49,724 bases of DNA, taken from an uncultured Pelagibacteraceae bacterium. Lineage in GTDB: Bacteria > Pseudomonadota > Alphaproteobacteria > Pelagibacterales > Pelagibacteraceae. Location of the stretch: the NCBI GenBank assembly GCA_902523095.1, contig CABYYE010000006.1, forward strand, positions 1 through 49,724, read 5' to 3'. A program made the translations under genes and the position numbers. Of this stretch, positions 6,249-17,019 are shown piece after piece. The notes below the pieces were generated by a model, which had not been told where the DNA came from, ran no database searches, and saw only the letters and a list, made by a program, of their open reading frames with translations. Each line of letters opens with the position of its first letter. Position 1 is the first letter of the stretch.

Positions 6249-7426
6249 AATTTGTCAATCATCAATAAATTTTTTGTTAAAAGTTTGACTGAGTTTTGGT
6301 CAATTTTATTTGGATGTAAACCAATAAAAAAACCTCTTTTTTCAATTTCATCAGCATTTTTAAATTTTTCTTTGTATTTGTTTAGATTATATAACTTTGA
6401 AACAGGTTGATTTAAAAAATTTCCACTTATAATTGGTCTAGTTTCAATACCTTGATTATTTAAATAATTTAAAAATCTTTGTTTTCTATTCAAAAATTTT
6501 TTATGAATTAATATAGGCAGCCCAAACCAACTTGGGGTAACTTTTTTTGTAGGATCTAAAAATTCAATTTGATTTCTCCAGTTTTTAGAATTTTTAATTG
6601 ATTCAATTATTTTTCTTCTATTGGTTGACCTATTGTTGATCATCTTATTTAACCTTTTAAACTGGTTTAAACCAATTGCAGCTGTAATATCAGTCGGCCT
6701 TAAATTAAAACCTGAATTTATAAAGTTAAAATTATTTTTTTTACTTATATTCAATCCTCTGTCCCAACCATGAGCTCTTAGACTATGAATTATCTTGTAA
6801 TCCTCATAATCATTACAAACAATCATACCTCCTTCACCAGCGGAAATTTGATGAGAAACAAAAAAAGAAAAAGTACCAAATCTTCCAAAGCTTCCTAATT
6901 TCTTGTTAGCGTATTTTGAGCCCAAAGATTCGCAAGTGTCCTCAATTAATACTAGTTTTCTTTTCTTAATTATTTTTTTGAGTTCATTCATGTTGGTTGA
7001 ATTTCCTAAAACGTGTACCGCTAAAATAGCTTTAGTTTTATTCGTTAATTTTTTTTTCAAATCATCAAGATCAATATTAAAAGTTTTTAAATCTACATCT
7101 ACAAATCTAGGTTTGAGTCCAGCCTGAATGATCGGCCATAATGAAGTAGACCAACAAATTGCAGGAATGATACATTCACTATTAGGTTTCAGTCTTTTTT
7201 TAAATTTTGGATTAATCAATGCAAAAAAAGCCAATAAGTTGGCTGAAGATCCTGAATTTACCATTAAAGCATATTTTACACCTAAATATTTAGCAAATTT
7301 TTTTTCAAAATCTTTAGTGATTTTACTCATAGTAATTATTTTTTTTGTGGAAAGTACTTTACGACCTGACAACATATCGCTTTCAGAAAAAGGAAATCCA
7401 ACTAAAGGATATTTCATCATCTTCAT
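6245..7426 (-). CDS. colD: ColD-like GDP-4-keto-6-deoxymannose 3-dehydratase
   Basis: A 393-residue member of the DegT/DnrJ/EryC1/StrS fold with the PLP Asp D163 in IEDTCES. The residue that is Lys in aminotransferases is His here, H192 in FFVSHQISAGEGG. Replacement of Lys by His marks the PLP-dependent 3-dehydratases ColD and RfbH/E1. Length, the KYPL opening, AHGWDRG, SWFG and GIETRPIISGNF all favour ColD over the longer RfbH. The expected reaction removes the C3 hydroxyl of GDP-4-keto-6-deoxymannose using glutamate. The gmd gene, which makes this substrate, overlaps the 3' end. The start shares one base with the methyltransferase stop (TAATG). No dedicated ColC epimerase/reductase is visible. 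Confidence 0.8.
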   Translation of the reverse strand: MKMMKYPLVGFPFSESDMLSGRKVLSTKKIITMSKITKDFEKKFAKYLGVKYALMVNSGSSANLLAFFALINPKFKKRLKPNSECIIPAICWSTSLWPIIQAGLKPRFVDVDLKTFNIDLDDLKKKLTNKTKAILAVHVLGNSTNMNELKKIIKKRKLVLIEDTCESLGSKYANKKLGSFGRFGTFSFFVSHQISAGEGGMIVCNDYEDYKIIHSLRAHGWDRGLNISKKNNFNFINSGFNLRPTDITAAIGLNQFKRLNKMINNRSTNRRKIIESIKNSKNWRNQIEFLDPTKKVTPSWFGLPILIHKKFLNRKQRFLNYLNNQGIETRPIISGNFLNQPVSKLYNLNKYKEKFKNADEIEKRGFFIGLHPNKIDQNSVKLLTKNLLMIDKL

Positions 7427-8721
7427 TATAATTTTTTTTCTCCTTCATTAGTTACAACATGAGGATAAGGCATTACGAACATTAATTTCCCTCCCTTTTG
7501 AATATATTCTTTTTCTCTATTTACAACTTCTGTTTTAAAATTCCAGGGTAAAACAATGAATGCTTCAGGATTAATTTCCCGGGCTTTTTTTTCAGAAATA
7601 AGCTCTATATCAGATCCTAAACACTTTAAACCTACTTTTTCAGAATTTCTCTCACTAATGAAAGGAATTTTTTCCTTAGAGAGACCAAAGTGTTGAAGAA
7701 TAATATTTCCTTTTGTACTAGCACCAAGACCTAAGACTTTTTTATCAGCACTTAATATATTGTTAACAAAATTTACAGTTTTGTTTTTCAGTTCAGAAAT
7801 TGTTTTATCAAAGTCAAAAAAAGTTTGAGGATTAGATAAATCAAATTTTTCCTCTTCTTTTCTTAGTAAATCTAACTTATTCATAAATTTTTCTTGATCG
7901 TATTTTTTAGTTTTATCTTTGCAAACGTAAAGTCTTATACTTCCTCCGTTTACACTATTTGTTTCAGCATAAAAACATTTTAAATTAAATTGTTTAATTA
8001 ATTTTTCAAAAGTTGAAATAGAGTAATAAGATAAATGTTCATGGCAAATATCATAAAAATTATTAAATCTTAACATAGAAACCAGGTAGCTAATTTGACA
8101 ACACCAAATTCCATCATCGTCTAGTATTTTATAAATATCGTTAACAAAATTTTTAGGATTTTCTAGATCATAAAACATTGCACAAGATGTTATAATTTTT
8201 GCTTTTTTGAATTTTGTATTAAAATCTTTAGAATTAAAATAATCATTAATAATATTAATATTTTTACCTTCATCAATATATTTAATATTTTGAGCTGGCT
8301 CATAACCTATAAGGTTATATCCCTTTTGATAAAAATTAAGTAAAGTACAATCGTTAGATCCAATGTCTACAATAGTGTCATTTTTTTTAGGTTTTGCTAT
8401 CTCAATAGCTTGATCAACTAGATTTTTTAAATCTTTTCTCATGGTATCATTTGTTGCGGATCTATAAAAATACTCTTTGTACAACAAATCAGCTTCAGTA
8501 ATTTCTTTTAATTGAAGCAAACCACAATTTTTCGTATTTTTTGTTTGATCGCACAAAACAAGTGTTAAAGGTGATTTAATTTTTGCTAAAACGTTATTTT
8601 CATTAGTTTTGACAAAAGTTGGTGAGAGAAATTGTTCTTCCAAAGTTAGAACCTCTGTTAGATCAGAGCTCTCACAAATTTTACAATTTTTAAGATGTTT
8701 GATTTTTTGTTCGTTGCTCAT
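7426..8721 (-). CDS. Zinc-binding sugar C-methyltransferase (TylCIII/NovU type)
   Basis: A 431-residue SAM-dependent methyltransferase with the three-part build of nucleotide-sugar C-methyltransferases. First comes an N-terminal zinc-binding domain with Cys 13, 16, 57 and 66. A Rossmann SAM domain follows, with VDIGSNDCTLL near residues 118-128 and HEHLSYYS in the middle. A C-terminal domain contains GLGASTKGN. Family members add a methyl group to carbon next to the 4-keto group of an activated deoxysugar. Its place directly upstream of the ColD-like gene and gmd suggests a GDP-linked 4-keto sugar as substrate. Position and product are inference. Confidence 0.8.
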   Translation of the reverse strand: MSNEQKIKHLKNCKICESSDLTEVLTLEEQFLSPTFVKTNENNVLAKIKSPLTLVLCDQTKNTKNCGLLQLKEITEADLLYKEYFYRSATNDTMRKDLKNLVDQAIEIAKPKKNDTIVDIGSNDCTLLNFYQKGYNLIGYEPAQNIKYIDEGKNINIINDYFNSKDFNTKFKKAKIITSCAMFYDLENPKNFVNDIYKILDDDGIWCCQISYLVSMLRFNNFYDICHEHLSYYSISTFEKLIKQFNLKCFYAETNSVNGGSIRLYVCKDKTKKYDQEKFMNKLDLLRKEEEKFDLSNPQTFFDFDKTISELKNKTVNFVNNILSADKKVLGLGASTKGNIILQHFGLSKEKIPFISERNSEKVGLKCLGSDIELISEKKAREINPEAFIVLPWNFKTEVVNREKEYIQKGGKLMFVMPYPHVVTNEGEKKL

Positions 8722-11268: not shown

Positions 11269-12375
11269 ATGTATAAAAAAAAGAAAAAAATACAAAGCTA
11301 TTTTAAATTCTTATTTTATAAGTTATTCCAAATTTATCATGGCAAGATTAAGGGTAAAATTTTGCCAGAAGATGATAGAGAAATAATTACTGAAAAAATT
11401 ACACTAAATCAACACAACTATAAAATTTATTACTGTGCAAATAGTTCACTTTATACAGACACAATTCATGACACGGCTATAATTAAAGATGATAAGATTA
11501 TTGAAGGACCTTCTTTTCAACTAAGAGATAACAAAAACGTTAATCCAGAATTTAATTCTGTTTTCACGAAAGGAACACCAAGATTAAAAAAAAAACTTAA
11601 TGGTACAGTTTTTTCTCTTCTCACAGGCGGCGGTGGAAATACTAATTACTGGCATTGGTTATTAGATGTATTACCACGTATTCACATAGCTAATAATTCA
11701 AAATATGTTGGTAATGAGATAGATTTTTATTTATTTCCAAGTTTAGATAGTCATTTTCAAAACGAAACGTTAGATTTTTTAAATATTCCAAAGAATAAAA
11801 GACTATCAAGTAAACATTATCGACATCTATTTTCAGACAAAATTATTGTAACTTCACATCCGTATAACTTACTTAATGATCCAGAAAAAGACTCACTAAA
11901 TATACCTTCATGGATTTCAAATTATTTGAGAGGGGTATTTTTAAAAAAAGTTATAAATTTGAAAACTAATAAACTAAGCCCTAAAAAAATTTATATTAAT
12001 CGACTTGATGGTAGGTCTCAAAGACTCATTTCCAATGAGAAAGATGTTGCCGAATGTTTAAAAAAGAAGGGTTTTGAAAGCCTTACTTTGAGCAAACTTA
12101 GTTTTTCAGAGCAGGTAAATTTTTTCCATAATGCAGATTATATTGCAGGTTTACATGGAGCGGGATTCGCAAATACTATTTTTTGTAAACCCAATACTAA
12201 AATTTTGGAGTTTAGATCTATCACAGCTGGTGATGCGATAAAGAATCTTGTGGCTCAAAATAAATTAGTTTACGAAGATATAAGCTCTGAAAATAAAACT
12301 TTAAAATATGAAAACCAATACGGTGATATTGAAGTTAATATTGATTTACTAAATTCAATCTTAAAACTTGAGTAA
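11269..12375 (+). CDS. GT61-family glycosyltransferase
   Basis: A 368-residue protein of the GT61 (DUF563) family. It shows NYWHWLLDVLPRI near residue 127, KIYINRLDGRSQRLISNEKD near residue 242, and the C-terminal HNADYIAGLHGAGFANTIFC with the invariant HGAG. The N-terminus is very Lys-rich without a signal peptide, so it is probably cytoplasmic or peripheral at the inner membrane. Bacterial GT61 proteins usually add sugars to exopolysaccharide or LPS; the donor cannot be told. It is followed after 59 bases by the DUF4956 gene and may share its transcript. Confidence 0.8.
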   Translation: MYKKKKKIQSYFKFLFYKLFQIYHGKIKGKILPEDDREIITEKITLNQHNYKIYYCANSSLYTDTIHDTAIIKDDKIIEGPSFQLRDNKNVNPEFNSVFTKGTPRLKKKLNGTVFSLLTGGGGNTNYWHWLLDVLPRIHIANNSKYVGNEIDFYLFPSLDSHFQNETLDFLNIPKNKRLSSKHYRHLFSDKIIVTSHPYNLLNDPEKDSLNIPSWISNYLRGVFLKKVINLKTNKLSPKKIYINRLDGRSQRLISNEKDVAECLKKKGFESLTLSKLSFSEQVNFFHNADYIAGLHGAGFANTIFCKPNTKILEFRSITAGDAIKNLVAQNKLVYEDISSENKTLKYENQYGDIEVNIDLLNSILKLE

Positions 12376-12434: not shown

Positions 12435-13052
12435 ATGGATGAATTAGAACCGATTATCTTATTAGTATTAGGCGGCCTTTTAATAAGATTTGCATTAACA
12501 TTTTCTGGACAAGCTTGGGCTAGATCCCATGCGCAAACTGTTACATTTATGCTTCTTCCTATTATTACTTATGTAATCACAAAGACAATTTCGGGTAATA
12601 TTGCTTTATCGCTTGGTATGATAGGTGCATTATCAATTGTTAGGTTTAGGCATCCTGTTAAGAGTGCTTTAGAATTAGTAATTTATTTTGCATTAATAAC
12701 TATTGGTATTGCTACGAGCGTGAGAACTAAATGGGCAATACAATTGATAATTTGTACAATTTTAATAATTCTTATTGTAAAAGGTGTTCAAGCATTATCC
12801 AAAAGGTTTGGTAAATCCTTTTATAGCATGTCTTTTTCTGAGGGAAATGTGAGCAACACTTTAGAAGTAGTGTCGAAACAAAGGATAGAAATGATTGAAA
12901 AAAGTGAAAATCTCATTAATTATTTTAGCGACATTAATAACAATCAATATAATTATAGATTAAATTTTATCAATAAAGAGTCTTTAGAAAAATTTAGGAA
13001 TAAACTTTCTGAAGAAAAAAATATTGAAAAAATCAATGTAGTCTTAAATTAA
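12435..13052 (+). CDS. DUF4956 integral membrane protein
   Basis: A 205-residue protein whose first 125 residues form about four membrane helices and whose last 80 form a soluble, charged domain. The signature GALSIVRFRHPVKSALELVIYF near residue 65 is diagnostic for DUF4956. The biochemical function of the family is unknown. In other bacteria DUF4956 genes often sit next to VTC-domain and CotH genes, as here, where CotH-like starts 7 bases downstream and VTC follows. The cytoplasmic tail may interact with the VTC protein (inference). Confidence 0.85.
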   Translation: MDELEPIILLVLGGLLIRFALTFSGQAWARSHAQTVTFMLLPIITYVITKTISGNIALSLGMIGALSIVRFRHPVKSALELVIYFALITIGIATSVRTKWAIQLIICTILIILIVKGVQALSKRFGKSFYSMSFSEGNVSNTLEVVSKQRIEMIEKSENLINYFSDINNNQYNYRLNFINKESLEKFRNKLSEEKNIEKINVVLN

Positions 13053-13059
13053 TTTACAT

Positions 13060-15438
13060 ATGATAAGAGTAAAAGTTTTATCTTTTTTTTTAATATTAAT
13101 TCTCTTTACATTTAACTTTTTTAACCTTTCAGCCAACAATGATAACACTAAAGAATCTCTAGGGTGTTCAAATGAATTAACAAAGAGCTATCTTTTAAAT
13201 TATTATGATTTACCAATAAAAAAAATTGAGATCGACACCAATAAGTATAAAAATTGGACAGCAAATAATGTTAGAATACTCACGCACAACGGAAGATTTA
13301 TTCCAAATAATCTTAAGAAGAGGTTTAAAGCTAAGATTAAAGTTATATATTCGGATGACACATTTTGTGTTTTGAGTGGCAGAATAAGACATAGTGGAGA
13401 CGCTAAAGACCATATAGCTTTAAAGGGAAATTCAATTGTCCAAAGTATCGATGTAACTCTTAATCATGGAAATATAAAAGGGATTACAAAATTTAAATTG
13501 TTTAAACCTGATGTCAGAGGTAATTTAAAAGATGTTGTAATTCAAACTAATCTTTTAAGAGAATTAGGATATTTAGCACCAAGATCAAAAAAAGTTTTTG
13601 CTAGAGTAAACGAAACTGAGTCGATTATGTTATTTCAAGAAAAAGCTGCAAAAGAATTACTTGAATTTAACAATAGAAGGGAAGGTCCTATCCTCGAAGG
13701 AGACCAAAAATATTTCTTTGAATTAGTTAAGAACATTCCCGATGATAATAAGAGCAACTGGTCAGCAGGAACACCCTTTTTAAGAAATAAAAGTATGAAA
13801 GTAATGTTGACAAAGTCCACAAATTCAAAAGTTATAGATAAAGGAGAGATACACAAGAAAATTTTTTTGAACACGATAAATAATTTAAATTTAATTTATT
13901 TATATTGGGCTAATAGGTTCCAAGATGAAAAAAATAACTATTTCTTTTTCGATTATGATTTAGATAATGAGTTATTAGGTCTATTTGATAAATCAAATAT
14001 CATTCGACTTGAAAAATATAATCTATTAATGCAGGCGACGAATAGCCAACACGCTTTAGGCCCTGATTCTAGAAAATTTTATTGGAATGCTATAGAAAAT
14101 TTATTTGAGCCAATTAATTATGATGCAAATCCTGAGATAGATAGAGAAACCCCCACTACTACAACAGCCGATTATCGCCTTCCAATTTCAAATTTTTTTG
14201 AAGATTCCTTTTTAAATTTAGAAAATGATCTAAAAAATATTAATTTGAAAACTTTTAAAGAAGGATTAAAAACAAACGGCCTTGATCTAACTGATGCAGA
14301 ATTAGAAAAAAAAATTAAAAAGATAATTAGAAATTTAGAGAAAATTAAAAATAACTATCTTCAAATTGAAAACAAAAGTTTAATTTCTCATAATAAATAC
14401 AAACCAATCGATAATATCTTGTCTAAATTCAATGAAAATATATTAGATATAGATTCAGAAGTGTTTTTAGTAAAATTTAATAAGAATTATCAGTTAGAAA
14501 AATGTAAAATAAATTTTAAAAATTGTGAGAAACTAGAACTAAATGATGAACAACTTTCAGAACTTCTAGAGGGTGAGTTAAAAATTGATAAGAAAAACTT
14601 TCAATTTATGGGGCAAAAATTCGATTTAAACAGTTTAAAAAGTGTCAATAATTATAAAAATAAAATTTCAATTGGAAAAACAAATATTTTTTTTGAAAAT
14701 GGTGTTGAATTGAAGGTTGATGAAAACTCAAAAAATATATTGATTAACCAAACTAAGCTAGGATCTAAAGTCTACTTTATTAATGGTAATTTAGATAACT
14801 ACTCAGTAAGTTACAATGGATTAAAAATTCCAGGTATCGAAAACAATAATAATGCAAAATTCCTCCCACCTAAATTTCCGATCGACACATTAGGTTTAAC
14901 GGGTTGTGTTTCTTTTATTAACTTAAAAATTAAAAATCTAAAAATTCAAGCCAATAACTCTAACTGTGAAGATACAATAAATTTTATTAATTCCGGCGGA
15001 AATGTTGATAGTATAATTATTGATAATTCTTTTAGAGATGCATTAGATGTTGATTTCTCAAATATTAGTTTTAAAGAAATAAAGATTTCTAATGCTATTA
15101 ATGATTGTGTAGATTTTTCATATGGAGATTATATCTTAAAAGACGTAGATTTAATTAATTGTGGAGATAAAGGACTTTCAATAGGTGAAAAATCAAAAGT
15201 TGATTTAAAAAAGATTAAAATTCAAAAAACAAATACTGGAGTAGCAATAAAAGATAGTTCCATATTAAGTTTAAAATATGCTTTTATAAAAGAGTCTAGC
15301 ACCTGTATTTCTGCTTACAATAAAAAGCAGGAATTTATGGGAGGTTATGTTGAAATTGATGAGTTAAATTGTAGAGAGTATGTTACAAAAAAAAACTCTG
15401 ATAACTTTTCGAAGATTTATGTTAAAAACGAATTATAG
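13060..15438 (+). CDS. Secreted CotH-like protein with C-terminal beta-helix
   Basis: A 792-residue protein with a signal peptide (about residues 1-26, IRVKVLSFFLILILFTFNFF), so it is exported. Residues from about 95 to 430 follow the CotH kinase pattern: RIRHSGDAKDHI, KFKLFKPDVRGN, LLRELGYLAPRSKKVFARVN, FQEKAAKELLE and REGPILEGD. Residues from about 600 to 770 are short Asn/Ser/Ile-rich repeats such as DVDFSNISFKEIKISNA, typical of a right-handed parallel beta-helix. CotH proteins in spore formers are atypical protein kinases; here the target is unknown and could be a surface glycan or protein. It lies in a tight run with DUF4956 and VTC. The catalytic residues are not certain by eye. Confidence 0.6.
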   Translation: MIRVKVLSFFLILILFTFNFFNLSANNDNTKESLGCSNELTKSYLLNYYDLPIKKIEIDTNKYKNWTANNVRILTHNGRFIPNNLKKRFKAKIKVIYSDDTFCVLSGRIRHSGDAKDHIALKGNSIVQSIDVTLNHGNIKGITKFKLFKPDVRGNLKDVVIQTNLLRELGYLAPRSKKVFARVNETESIMLFQEKAAKELLEFNNRREGPILEGDQKYFFELVKNIPDDNKSNWSAGTPFLRNKSMKVMLTKSTNSKVIDKGEIHKKIFLNTINNLNLIYLYWANRFQDEKNNYFFFDYDLDNELLGLFDKSNIIRLEKYNLLMQATNSQHALGPDSRKFYWNAIENLFEPINYDANPEIDRETPTTTTADYRLPISNFFEDSFLNLENDLKNINLKTFKEGLKTNGLDLTDAELEKKIKKIIRNLEKIKNNYLQIENKSLISHNKYKPIDNILSKFNENILDIDSEVFLVKFNKNYQLEKCKINFKNCEKLELNDEQLSELLEGELKIDKKNFQFMGQKFDLNSLKSVNNYKNKISIGKTNIFFENGVELKVDENSKNILINQTKLGSKVYFINGNLDNYSVSYNGLKIPGIENNNNAKFLPPKFPIDTLGLTGCVSFINLKIKNLKIQANNSNCEDTINFINSGGNVDSIIIDNSFRDALDVDFSNISFKEIKISNAINDCVDFSYGDYILKDVDLINCGDKGLSIGEKSKVDLKKIKIQKTNTGVAIKDSSILSLKYAFIKESSTCISAYNKKQEFMGGYVEIDELNCREYVTKKNSDNFSKIYVKNEL

Positions 15439-15461
15439 ATTAATAAACATAGGTATCTTTT

Positions 15462-16055
15462 TTGAGTTTTAGAATTGAAGATAAGCTTTATATTAAACAT
15501 GAAAACTTAATTGATTTTAAAGGTTATCTAAATGCTAATCGTTGTGAAGTTCTTCATAAGCCTCGAATAATTGAAAGTTTGTATTTTGATAATCAAAATC
15601 TTCAAACATATAATGACTCAATCGAAGGTATGGTACCAAGGAAAAAAATTAGAATAAGAAATTATCCGTCAAGTGATGATCAAAAATGTTATTATGAAAT
15701 AAAAAATTCATCGGTTGAGGGCAGATATAAAACTAGAAAAATTATAGACAAAAAAGCTTTTGAAGAAATAAAAAATGTTGGGATTTTTGATGAGCAATAC
15801 GGCTTATGTTTTCCAAAAATTTATGTAAAATATTTAAGAGAATATTTCAAAGTTAAGGACGTAAGAGTTTCCATTGATACTAATATACAATATAGAGATT
15901 ACAAAACTAATTTTCAAATTTCTGATGATAGAGTAATTGCTGAATTAAAAACATCAATTAATAAAGATGCAGATGAATTAACAAAAGATTTCCCAATCCA
16001 AAGAATAAGATTTTCAAAATATTGTTTTGGTATGGAAAAATTATACCAACTATAA
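15462..16055 (+). CDS. VTC-domain (triphosphate tunnel fold) protein
   Basis: A 197-residue soluble protein with the VTC polyphosphate-polymerase core. Visible marks are RIEDKLYI at the N-terminus, SLYFDNQNLQTYNDSIEG, the basic strand RKKIRIRNY, YYEIKNSSVEGRYKTRK, and a closing VIAELKTSI strand with Glu and Lys facing the tunnel. The start is TTG at 15462; no ATG lies early in the frame and AGGT sits about 8 bases upstream. Yeast VTC4 makes polyphosphate from ATP, but the activity of bacterial VTC proteins beside DUF4956 and CotH is not settled. The gene is 23 bases after the CotH-like gene and 3 bases before the FkbM gene. Confidence 0.8.
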   Translation: MSFRIEDKLYIKHENLIDFKGYLNANRCEVLHKPRIIESLYFDNQNLQTYNDSIEGMVPRKKIRIRNYPSSDDQKCYYEIKNSSVEGRYKTRKIIDKKAFEEIKNVGIFDEQYGLCFPKIYVKYLREYFKVKDVRVSIDTNIQYRDYKTNFQISDDRVIAELKTSINKDADELTKDFPIQRIRFSKYCFGMEKLYQL

Positions 16056-16058
16056 TTT

Positions 16059-16937
16059 ATGTACGTTACTAAAAGAATTTTTAGAGTTTTTGAGTCGGTG
16101 GTTTATAAGACTTTATCTTTATTTTCAAAAATAAAAAATGAAAAATTTATACAATCAATTAATTCTGCGCAGTATAAAAATCAATTTGACAGACAATATT
16201 TATTATCAAACAATAGTGAAATAAAATATCTGTTGAAATCAGGAGATGATATTGCAAAATATTTGTACATAAATAATTCATGGAATTTTCACGTTTTAAA
16301 GAAAGCTTGTAAATTACTTAAAAAAAAAAGATCAATTTCTAATTTAATTAATATTGGAGCTCATGTAGGCTCAACCTGTATTCCGGCAGTAAAAAGCAAA
16401 CTTTTCAATCAAGCAATTGCGTTTGAACCTTTCCCTATAAATTTCAAACTTTTAACAACGAATATTTTTTTAAATTCTCTTGAGGATAAAATTAGCACTC
16501 ACAATATTGCTTTGAGTGATAAAAAAAAAAAATTATTCATAAAACAATTTGGAGTAAATTCAGGTGATTGTAGAATATTAAATAAAAAAGAGAAAAATGC
16601 GCATGAAATAAGTTGCCATCAACTAGATCAATATACGAAAAGTTATAACAAGGGTAATTCTCTTATTTTTATGTATGCTCAAGGCCACGAACCTGAGATT
16701 TTTTTAGGAGCAAGACAAACAATATTAAAAAAAATTCCTATAATTACAGAATTCATGCCCTCATTATTTAATGCAAAATGGATTAAAAAAATGTCACATT
16801 TAATAAAAAATTATAAATATTTCTACGATTTAAAAAAAAATGAGAGTAAAAAAAACTTTTCTATACAAGAATTAGAAAATTTGAAAGATGAATATATTGT
16901 AAACAATAATTATACAGATATATTAATCTTTAATTAA
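16059..16937 (+). CDS. FkbM-like methyltransferase with altered motif
   Basis: A 292-residue protein with the FkbM layout: NIGAHVGSTCIPAV (SAM glycine loop, residues 98-111), AFEPFPINFKLLTTNI, ALSDKKKKLF, and a C-terminal QGHEPEIFLGA. The family normally has an Asp in the strand before this last motif (IDVQGHE); here the strand reads MYAQGHE, so Tyr206 takes that place. The protein may be inactive or changed in substrate. FkbM relatives O-methylate sugars or fatty acyl chains. A 12-A run (16521-16532) encodes part of the Lys stretch. The stop is 5 bases ahead of the tRNA gene. Confidence 0.7.
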   Translation: MYVTKRIFRVFESVVYKTLSLFSKIKNEKFIQSINSAQYKNQFDRQYLLSNNSEIKYLLKSGDDIAKYLYINNSWNFHVLKKACKLLKKKRSISNLINIGAHVGSTCIPAVKSKLFNQAIAFEPFPINFKLLTTNIFLNSLEDKISTHNIALSDKKKKLFIKQFGVNSGDCRILNKKEKNAHEISCHQLDQYTKSYNKGNSLIFMYAQGHEPEIFLGARQTILKKIPIITEFMPSLFNAKWIKKMSHLIKNYKYFYDLKKNESKKNFSIQELENLKDEYIVNNNYTDILIFN

Positions 16938-16942
16938 TAAAA

Positions 16943-17019
16943 GGCGAGGTAGCTCAGTTGGTTAGAGCACAGGACTCATAAGCCTGGGGTCGGCGGTTCG
17001 AATCCGCCCCTCGCTACCA
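16943..17019 (+). tRNA. tRNA-Met (CAT), elongator type
   Basis: A complete 77-base cloverleaf with encoded CCA. The acceptor is GGCGAGG paired to CCTCGCT with a G1.U72 wobble, followed by a D arm GCTC/GAGC, anticodon loop CTCATAA (CAT), T arm GGCGG/CCGCC with TTCGAAT, then A73 and CCA. An initiator tRNA would have a mismatched C1/A72, so this is the elongator form; the lysidine tRNA-Ile(CAT) is less likely because G1.U72 with CTACCA is known from alphaproteobacterial tRNA-Met. The last pair of the anticodon stem is A31.G39, a mismatch. It sits inside the polysaccharide island, 14 bases before the next ORF. Confidence 0.92.

Follow-up and report, generated by a model that had tools for sequence, protein, structure and literature searches.

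A DUF4956, CotH-fold and VTC gene cassette in Pelagibacteraceae as a possible accessory module for an extracytoplasmic polymer

A 49,724-nucleotide stretch of DNA from an uncultured SAR11 bacterium of the Pelagibacteraceae (contig CABYYE010000006.1 of assembly GCA_902523095.1, hereafter the window) carries a cassette of three genes, coding for a DUF4956 membrane protein, an exported protein with a predicted CotH fold and a VTC domain protein. Our reading, which is tentative and falls short of likely, is that the cassette is a portable accessory module by which an extracytoplasmic polymer would be optionally modified or regulated via VTC-made polyphosphate. The computed support covers families, folds, export topology, co-inheritance, residue patterns and operon company. 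New here are the presence of the trio in SAR11 and Prochlorococcus, a split of the CotH domain into an Asp and a His form that is tied to a beta-helix fusion, an invariant residue cluster in that beta-helix, and genomic sites that are free of the insert. The assembly, of which the window is contig C6, measures 886 kb and is 75% complete; the assignment to SAR11 follows from its closest named matches, which are single cells of Pelagibacteraceae.

Folds and conserved residues of the three proteins

An earlier reading of the bare sequence, here called the original prediction, had described three adjacent genes on one strand, and open reading frame coordinates confirmed this arrangement: all three are on the plus strand, with gaps of 7 bases between the DUF4956 gene and the gene for the 792-residue protein, and of 23 bases between the latter and the VTC gene. 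The features of the cassette are as follows.

12435..13052, plus strand: DUF4956 membrane protein, 205 amino acids, with four predicted transmembrane helices and a C-terminal ACT/ferredoxin-like domain; signature GALSIVRFR (G64-R72)
13060..15438, plus strand: exported two-domain protein, 792 amino acids (predicted CotH-fold domain and right-handed beta-helix)
13060..13134, plus strand: probable signal peptide, residues 1-25 (hydrophobic stretch 1-26 by hydropathy, cleavage site inferred by eye)
13303..14136, plus strand: CotH-fold core, residues 82-359, with E194, D355, H331 and S337
14875..15435, plus strand: predicted beta-helix domain, residues 606-792 (the C-terminal 187 residues)
15462..16055, plus strand: VTC domain protein, 197 amino acids, TTG start

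The family assignments and topology of the original prediction also held. The VTC protein matches Pfam PF09359 (E 1.6e-25) and has no transmembrane helices; the DUF4956 protein matches PF16316 (E 1.9e-11, 44.5 bits against a cut-off of 30.6) and shows four hydrophobic helices in a hydropathy analysis, consistent with a place in the membrane; and the middle protein carries a signal peptide. A VTC profile aligned with yeast Vtc4 at E 1.6e-10 when built from SAR11 rows and at 1.1e-18 when built from 35 diverse rows. In this comparison, for which Vtc4 numbering was obtained through an offset of +185 from the aligned chain, window residues K8, R64, R66, K81, K90, R126, E161 and K186 correspond to Vtc4 K200, R264, R266, K281, K294, R361, E426 and K458. 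All eight compared tunnel residues, whose absence the original prediction had named as a refutation of its idea, are thus found in the window protein, and they are invariant across the 35-row alignment. Vtc4 K458, the counterpart of K186, has been described as catalytic, and tripolyphosphatases are distinguished by an acidic patch that replaces basic residues (PMC4641920). At these distinguishing positions the window protein has Arg at the first (R4) and Glu at the second (E6). Since the eight compared residues are kept, the window VTC protein is probably a polyphosphate polymerase.

For the DUF4956 protein, a structure model (pLDDT 77.9) gave an ACT-like C-terminal tail in a fold search. The transmembrane part had no solved match in the same kind of search; this does not speak for a new fold. 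Profile comparison by hhalign between DUF4956 and MgtC reached 95.4% (195 columns, E 1.8e-8); an MFS control reached 0.1%. Two DUF4956 homologues match the MgtC model NF007431 weakly, at 22-23 bits against its cut-off of 214, and a Pfam scan of the window DUF4956 protein gave no MgtC match. On these profiles, DUF4956 appears to be a remote MgtC relative, a kinship previously noted for the homologue SIR_1592 (PMC12345266). Its invariant charged residues, R70 and R72, are basic, and K76 is kept in more than 90% of sequences. The pore of yeast VTC is basic as well (PMC9911596), and by analogy the basic residues of DUF4956 would suit a polyanion; conduction of polyphosphate by DUF4956 is speculation.

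The 792-residue protein itself had no match in a Pfam scan, and PDB profile searches with the protein alone or with its alignment found none. Among 16 relatives aligned to it, three match the CotH family (best 3.1e-12) and two match Beta_helix. A structure model of residues 25-470, a span that ends before the beta-helix, was obtained with a pLDDT of 84.6 and a pTM of 0.86. Among solved structures it comes closest to CotH (Foldseek 1e-10; Z 20.4 across 305 residues at 16% identity), followed by folds such as the Fam20 kinases, with Z 11.5 for sugar-bound hydra Fam20. The model therefore gives the N-terminal part of the protein a CotH fold; the lack of such a match would have counted against the original prediction. 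Of the CotH mutants, D228Q has no activity and D251A is reported to be catalytically inactive (PMC7821199). The equivalents of these residues were located by aligning a Bacillota homologue to 5JD9 and by spacing; loop lengths differ by about one residue between the Asp and His forms, and the exact superposition is inferred. In the window protein, H331 stands where CotH has its catalytic D228, D355 is the equivalent of the metal-binding D251, E194 is retained, and S337 occupies the likely position of a metal-site Asn. The CotH-kinase-like motifs of the original prediction thus hold as regards the fold and not as regards the catalytic Asp.

This replacement follows domain architecture. In 40 proteins without a beta-helix, mainly from Bacillota and chosen to exclude the SAR11 proteins of loci L030 and L074 (which lack a beta-helix and are not of the Asp form), the D228 position is Asp in 39 and the D251 position in all 40. 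In 28 proteins fused to a beta-helix, mainly from Gram-negative bacteria, the D228 position is His in 27 and the D251 position is Asp in 26. The window protein belongs to the His form, fused to a C-terminal beta-helix. Because the His is so widely conserved, simple decay of the CotH-fold domain is disfavoured. The split also offers two experimentally separable forms of the module.

The C-terminal 187 residues are predicted to be a right-handed beta-helix, judging by relatives of this domain that match Beta_helix in Pfam (best member 1.9e-15). In an alignment of 22 proteins from several phyla, the domain has 14 invariant columns, nearly all of them charged (D638, D660, D663, D665, D682, D685, D703, K704, S707, G709, E710, K731, D732 and K755). 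Invariant residues are more numerous in the beta-helix than in the kinase-fold domain, and the beta-helix may be the working part of the exported protein.

Recurrence and genomic setting of the cassette

Of 150 genomes searched as relatives, the window's own included, 19 have VTC; so do 7 of 385 genomes of the class at E 0.001, six of them above the cut-off. The complete trio was found at 18 of the 21 SAR11 loci fetched by VTC, and the remaining three are cut off by contig ends; its occurrence in SAR11 is therefore not due to chance. The order is mostly DUF4956-CotH-VTC, with DUF4956-VTC-CotH at two loci and an extra gene of unknown kind at two. This last gene, of about 340 codons and without a Pfam match, lies between DUF4956 and CotH in L026 (10013-11041) and L027 (4145-5167), which represent one SAR11 cassette lineage; in L026, a sulfatase gene follows VTC.

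Beyond SAR11, a DUF4956 pattern was used to scan GTDB genomes, the VTC alignment being too divergent for one, and the best 80 of at least 581 relatives were taken, a sample biased to Bacillota. Among 75 loci in which the DUF4956 gene was called, 60 have VTC, and 51 have VTC together with CotH, at most three genes away on the same strand. The recurrence that the original prediction had called for thus extends to SAR11 and many phyla. DUF4956 and VTC distances over 73 pairs correlate at 0.918, a value reached in none of 500 permutations, which shows joint inheritance, not contact, with shared descent contributing.

In a tree of joined DUF4956 and VTC sequences, the window group, a group from the aprAB region and two Prochlorococcus cassettes form one clade, with L028 and L030 (together with a Bacteroidetes sequence), L074, and L026/L027 placed elsewhere. 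From these placements, the cassette appears to have entered SAR11 at least three times. Some genomes (G029, G033 and G048) hold two cassettes. The Prochlorococcus cassettes, from single cells (L059 and L060), are trios of the beta-helix form, and their position inside the SAR11 clade suggests transfer between two dominant ocean lineages. An FkbM methyltransferase gene lies just upstream of the cassette in L060. The second SAR11 cassette lineage, L038-L044 (genomes G042, G014, G023, G038, G010 and G075), has no glycan-gene neighbours; it adjoins aprAB, a haem-oxygenase-like/TENA gene, an MFS transporter and a Cys/Met pyridoxal phosphate enzyme. In the SAR11 cassette L056, a calcineurin-like phosphoesterase gene (6975-7937) lies about 15 bases upstream of DUF4956. 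L134 (4613-7447), the sole viral_contigs/IMG/VR match, has a miaB-like gene and a VTC-DUF4956 pair adjoining phage-type genes; we read it as the host flank of a prophage and rejected it as a viral cassette.

A glycan island bordered by a tRNA-Met gene houses about ten of the SAR11 cassettes, among them that of the window. In the window, the neighbours are as follows.

11269..12375, plus strand: GT61 glycosyltransferase, left neighbour of the cassette
16059..16937, plus strand: FkbM-type methyltransferase, right neighbour of the cassette
16943..17019, plus strand: tRNA-Met(CAT), right landmark of the glycan island

The scanned flanks comprise GT61, FkbM, DUF4422 and DegT aminotransferase genes, and farther neighbours are sugar-nucleotide genes by sequence. 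None of the flanking genes scanned belongs to the PelF or PelG families, and the cassette is not contiguous with pelDEADAFG. A promoter and terminator scan found promoter-like sites that barely exceed those of shuffled sequences and no terminator. The FkbM gene has this position in one close relative only. In many relatives tRNA-Met(CAT) is followed by a DUF4422 gene, and the tRNA marks the island in many SAR11 genomes whether or not the cassette is present. Four relatives (G077, G002, G049 and G070) have the same island, with GT61, a 10296-type gene, sugar genes, tRNA-Met and DUF4422, but no cassette; GT61 directly adjoins tRNA-Met in G077 and lies elsewhere in the island in others. In this island, then, the cassette is an insert that can be present or absent.

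The trio has been described as a set of accessory genes of Gram-positive Pel operons (PMC7112168). In Streptococcus intermedius, SIR_1592 codes for a DUF4956/MgtC-like protein, SIR_1593 for a polyphosphate polymerase and SIR_1594 for CotH (PMC7112168, PMC12345266). Loss of SIR_1592 or SIR_1594 lowered aggregation in artificial sputum medium by over half; Pel was still made, in larger amounts without the DUF4956 homologue and in smaller amounts without the CotH homologue (PMC12345266). The same 2025 paper did not find synteny of the trio outside Pel, and the loci of our survey contradict this. CotH also occurs alongside polysaccharide genes in Clostridium perfringens NELoc-2 (PMC2879425) and in Zetaproteobacteria stalk clusters (PMC8250860). 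A census of 115 operon neighbours outside SAR11 counted 11 PelF-type, 9 DUF2194, 7 PelG and 7 GT2 genes and several acetylation-type genes (AlgX, MBOAT and DHHW), as well as 9 histidine kinases, 9 response regulators and GGDEF, PilZ and EAL genes. At four Bacillota loci (L093, L110, L119 and L121), genes sized like a response regulator and a histidine kinase lie upstream of VTC-DUF4956, with no CotH detected. The polysaccharide link of the trio is strong globally and partial in SAR11. Its presence in SAR11 and Prochlorococcus, with repeated acquisition, marks the trio as a general module and not a peculiarity of streptococcal Pel.

Proposed function and its alternatives

A kinase-fold enzyme that is secreted must obtain phosphate from some donor. 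A cytoplasmic polyphosphate polymerase combined with a membrane protein and an exported protein of CotH fold offers a possible source, and one that can be tested. We propose that VTC would polymerise phosphate from ATP at the inner face of the membrane, as the conserved Vtc4 active-site residues suggest. The MgtC-like DUF4956 protein, with its ACT-like cytosolic domain, would anchor or gate VTC and may pass the chain outward. The exported protein would work in the periplasm or at the surface, where its beta-helix may act on or grip a glycan and its His-form CotH domain may bind nucleotide, polyphosphate or phosphate, or carry out an altered phosphotransfer. The net effect would be a surface polymer that is optionally modified or regulated. 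The original prediction of a phosphate-based modification of a surface polymer is plausible on the sequence evidence: it gains from the presence of the trio in polysaccharide operons across phyla (PMC7112168, PMC12345266) and loses by SAR11 cassettes outside glycan genes and by a CotH domain without its catalytic Asp. The association, whose joint function had been called unsettled, has already been explored: S. intermedius deletions alter Pel-dependent aggregation.

Several points weigh against our proposal. No periplasmic ATP source is known, and passage of polyphosphate through DUF4956 is conjectural. Without the catalytic Asp, the case for direct kinase action outside is weakened, and the densest invariant residues are in the beta-helix. 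The mutant of the VTC homologue SIR_1593 still aggregated, with no reported aggregation change (PMC12345266). Other SAR11 cassettes adjoin aprAB, ABC transporter, metallophosphoesterase, mnmA or tRNA genes, and a tie to the polymer of this particular island is not general in SAR11. Finally, several Bacillota loci combine VTC-DUF4956 with a histidine kinase or response regulator and no detected CotH, and regulation fits these equally.

Such loci, with their two-component genes, are among the evidence for a regulatory module, in which VTC would sense the ATP or phosphate state or make a short polyphosphate signal and the ACT-like domain of DUF4956 would relay it, tuning surface-polymer synthesis or export with the exported protein as output. 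The MgtC kinship and ACT-like domain of DUF4956 also fit, as MgtC proteins regulate partners, and so do the GGDEF, PilZ and EAL operon neighbours and the opposite changes of Pel in the DUF4956- and CotH-homologue mutants (PMC12345266). However, no regulator adjoins the SAR11 cassette, whose sites vary, and the residues kept without exception in VTC mark a polymerase and not a mere binder. We consider this explanation somewhat unlikely.

Two further readings are, in our judgement, doubtful to a similar degree. In one, DUF4956-VTC would be a bacterial polyphosphate synthase-exporter, the counterpart of yeast VTC, and the His-form CotH/beta-helix protein a new extracytoplasmic enzyme using or handling exported polyphosphate on surface glycans; if true, phosphoryl chemistry would be possible where ATP is absent. 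In the other, the beta-helix would be an enzyme of the pectate-lyase/GH28 fold class that cleaves or epimerises glycans, the CotH domain would only dock and the phosphate part would be regulation. The 14 invariant, mostly charged residues suit such an enzyme, and single beta-helix members match GH28 and pectate-lyase families. The PDB matches of the beta-helix were endopolygalacturonases only, with marginal E-values of just 0.07-0.23, aligned on the NTD, QDD, GHG and RIK motifs. These catalytic motifs of GH28 aligned but were altered to DALD, NDC, DKG and IKD (E 0.07). Since part of the GH28 catalytic set is replaced (Asp by Asn, His by Lys, Arg by Ala or Ser), classical hydrolysis by the beta-helix is unlikely.

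Phosphate storage, with VTC as an alternative polyphosphate synthase suited to phosphate-poor seawater and its partners handling the product, is improbable. The VTC active site is complete, PPK1 was not found in the window's 75% complete assembly, and the cassette of L056 follows a metallophosphoesterase gene. By hand count, PPK1 occurs in 6 of 18 VTC-positive and 39 of 72 VTC-negative relatives in the genus, a small difference among incomplete genomes with no formal test, and the idea of PPK1 replacement is weak; moreover, storage needs neither an exported beta-helix protein nor polysaccharide company. Least probable is true phosphorylation of a glycan or surface protein outside by the His-form CotH domain with exported polyphosphate as donor, for which the CotH and Fam20 likeness, the retained D355 and E194 and a His that is not drifting speak, but the D228Q substitution kills CotH (PMC7821199), the equivalent Asp is absent here and Ser replaces the metal-site Asn.

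Comparison with known systems

The Gram-positive Pel accessory set shares with the window cassette the same three families, adjacent and in an exopolysaccharide context. It differs in that no pel genes were seen beside the window cassette, that the SAR11 host is Gram-negative and streamlined, with cassettes also away from glycan genes, and that SIR_1594 is reported to carry FN3 where the window protein has a beta-helix; CotH here is the His form and not the Asp form presumed for SIR_1594. C. perfringens NELoc-2 (PMC2879425) likewise joins VTC, CotH and a chitin-synthase-like glycosyltransferase, but in a Gram-positive host and with neighbours annotated as tubulin/FtsZ that may be DUF4956.

Compared with the spore-coat kinase CotH (5JD9/5JDA), the exported protein shares the fold over 305 residues, the DFG-type Asp (D251, here D355) and the Glu, whereas it has His for D228, is fused to a beta-helix and belongs to a non-sporulating host. 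With the MgtC/SapB family, DUF4956 shares, by profile comparison, a transmembrane core and an ACT-like C-terminus, although the kinship is remote and under the curated cut-off of MgtC models. In the yeast VTC complex, with Vtc4 as its catalytic subunit (3G3Q, PMC9911596), the membrane partner is Vtc1, whereas here it would be an MgtC-like protein with four transmembrane helices, and the window VTC protein is without an SPX domain. Both systems nevertheless appear to have a homologous tunnel domain with the eight compared active-site residues and a membrane partner carrying conserved basic residues.

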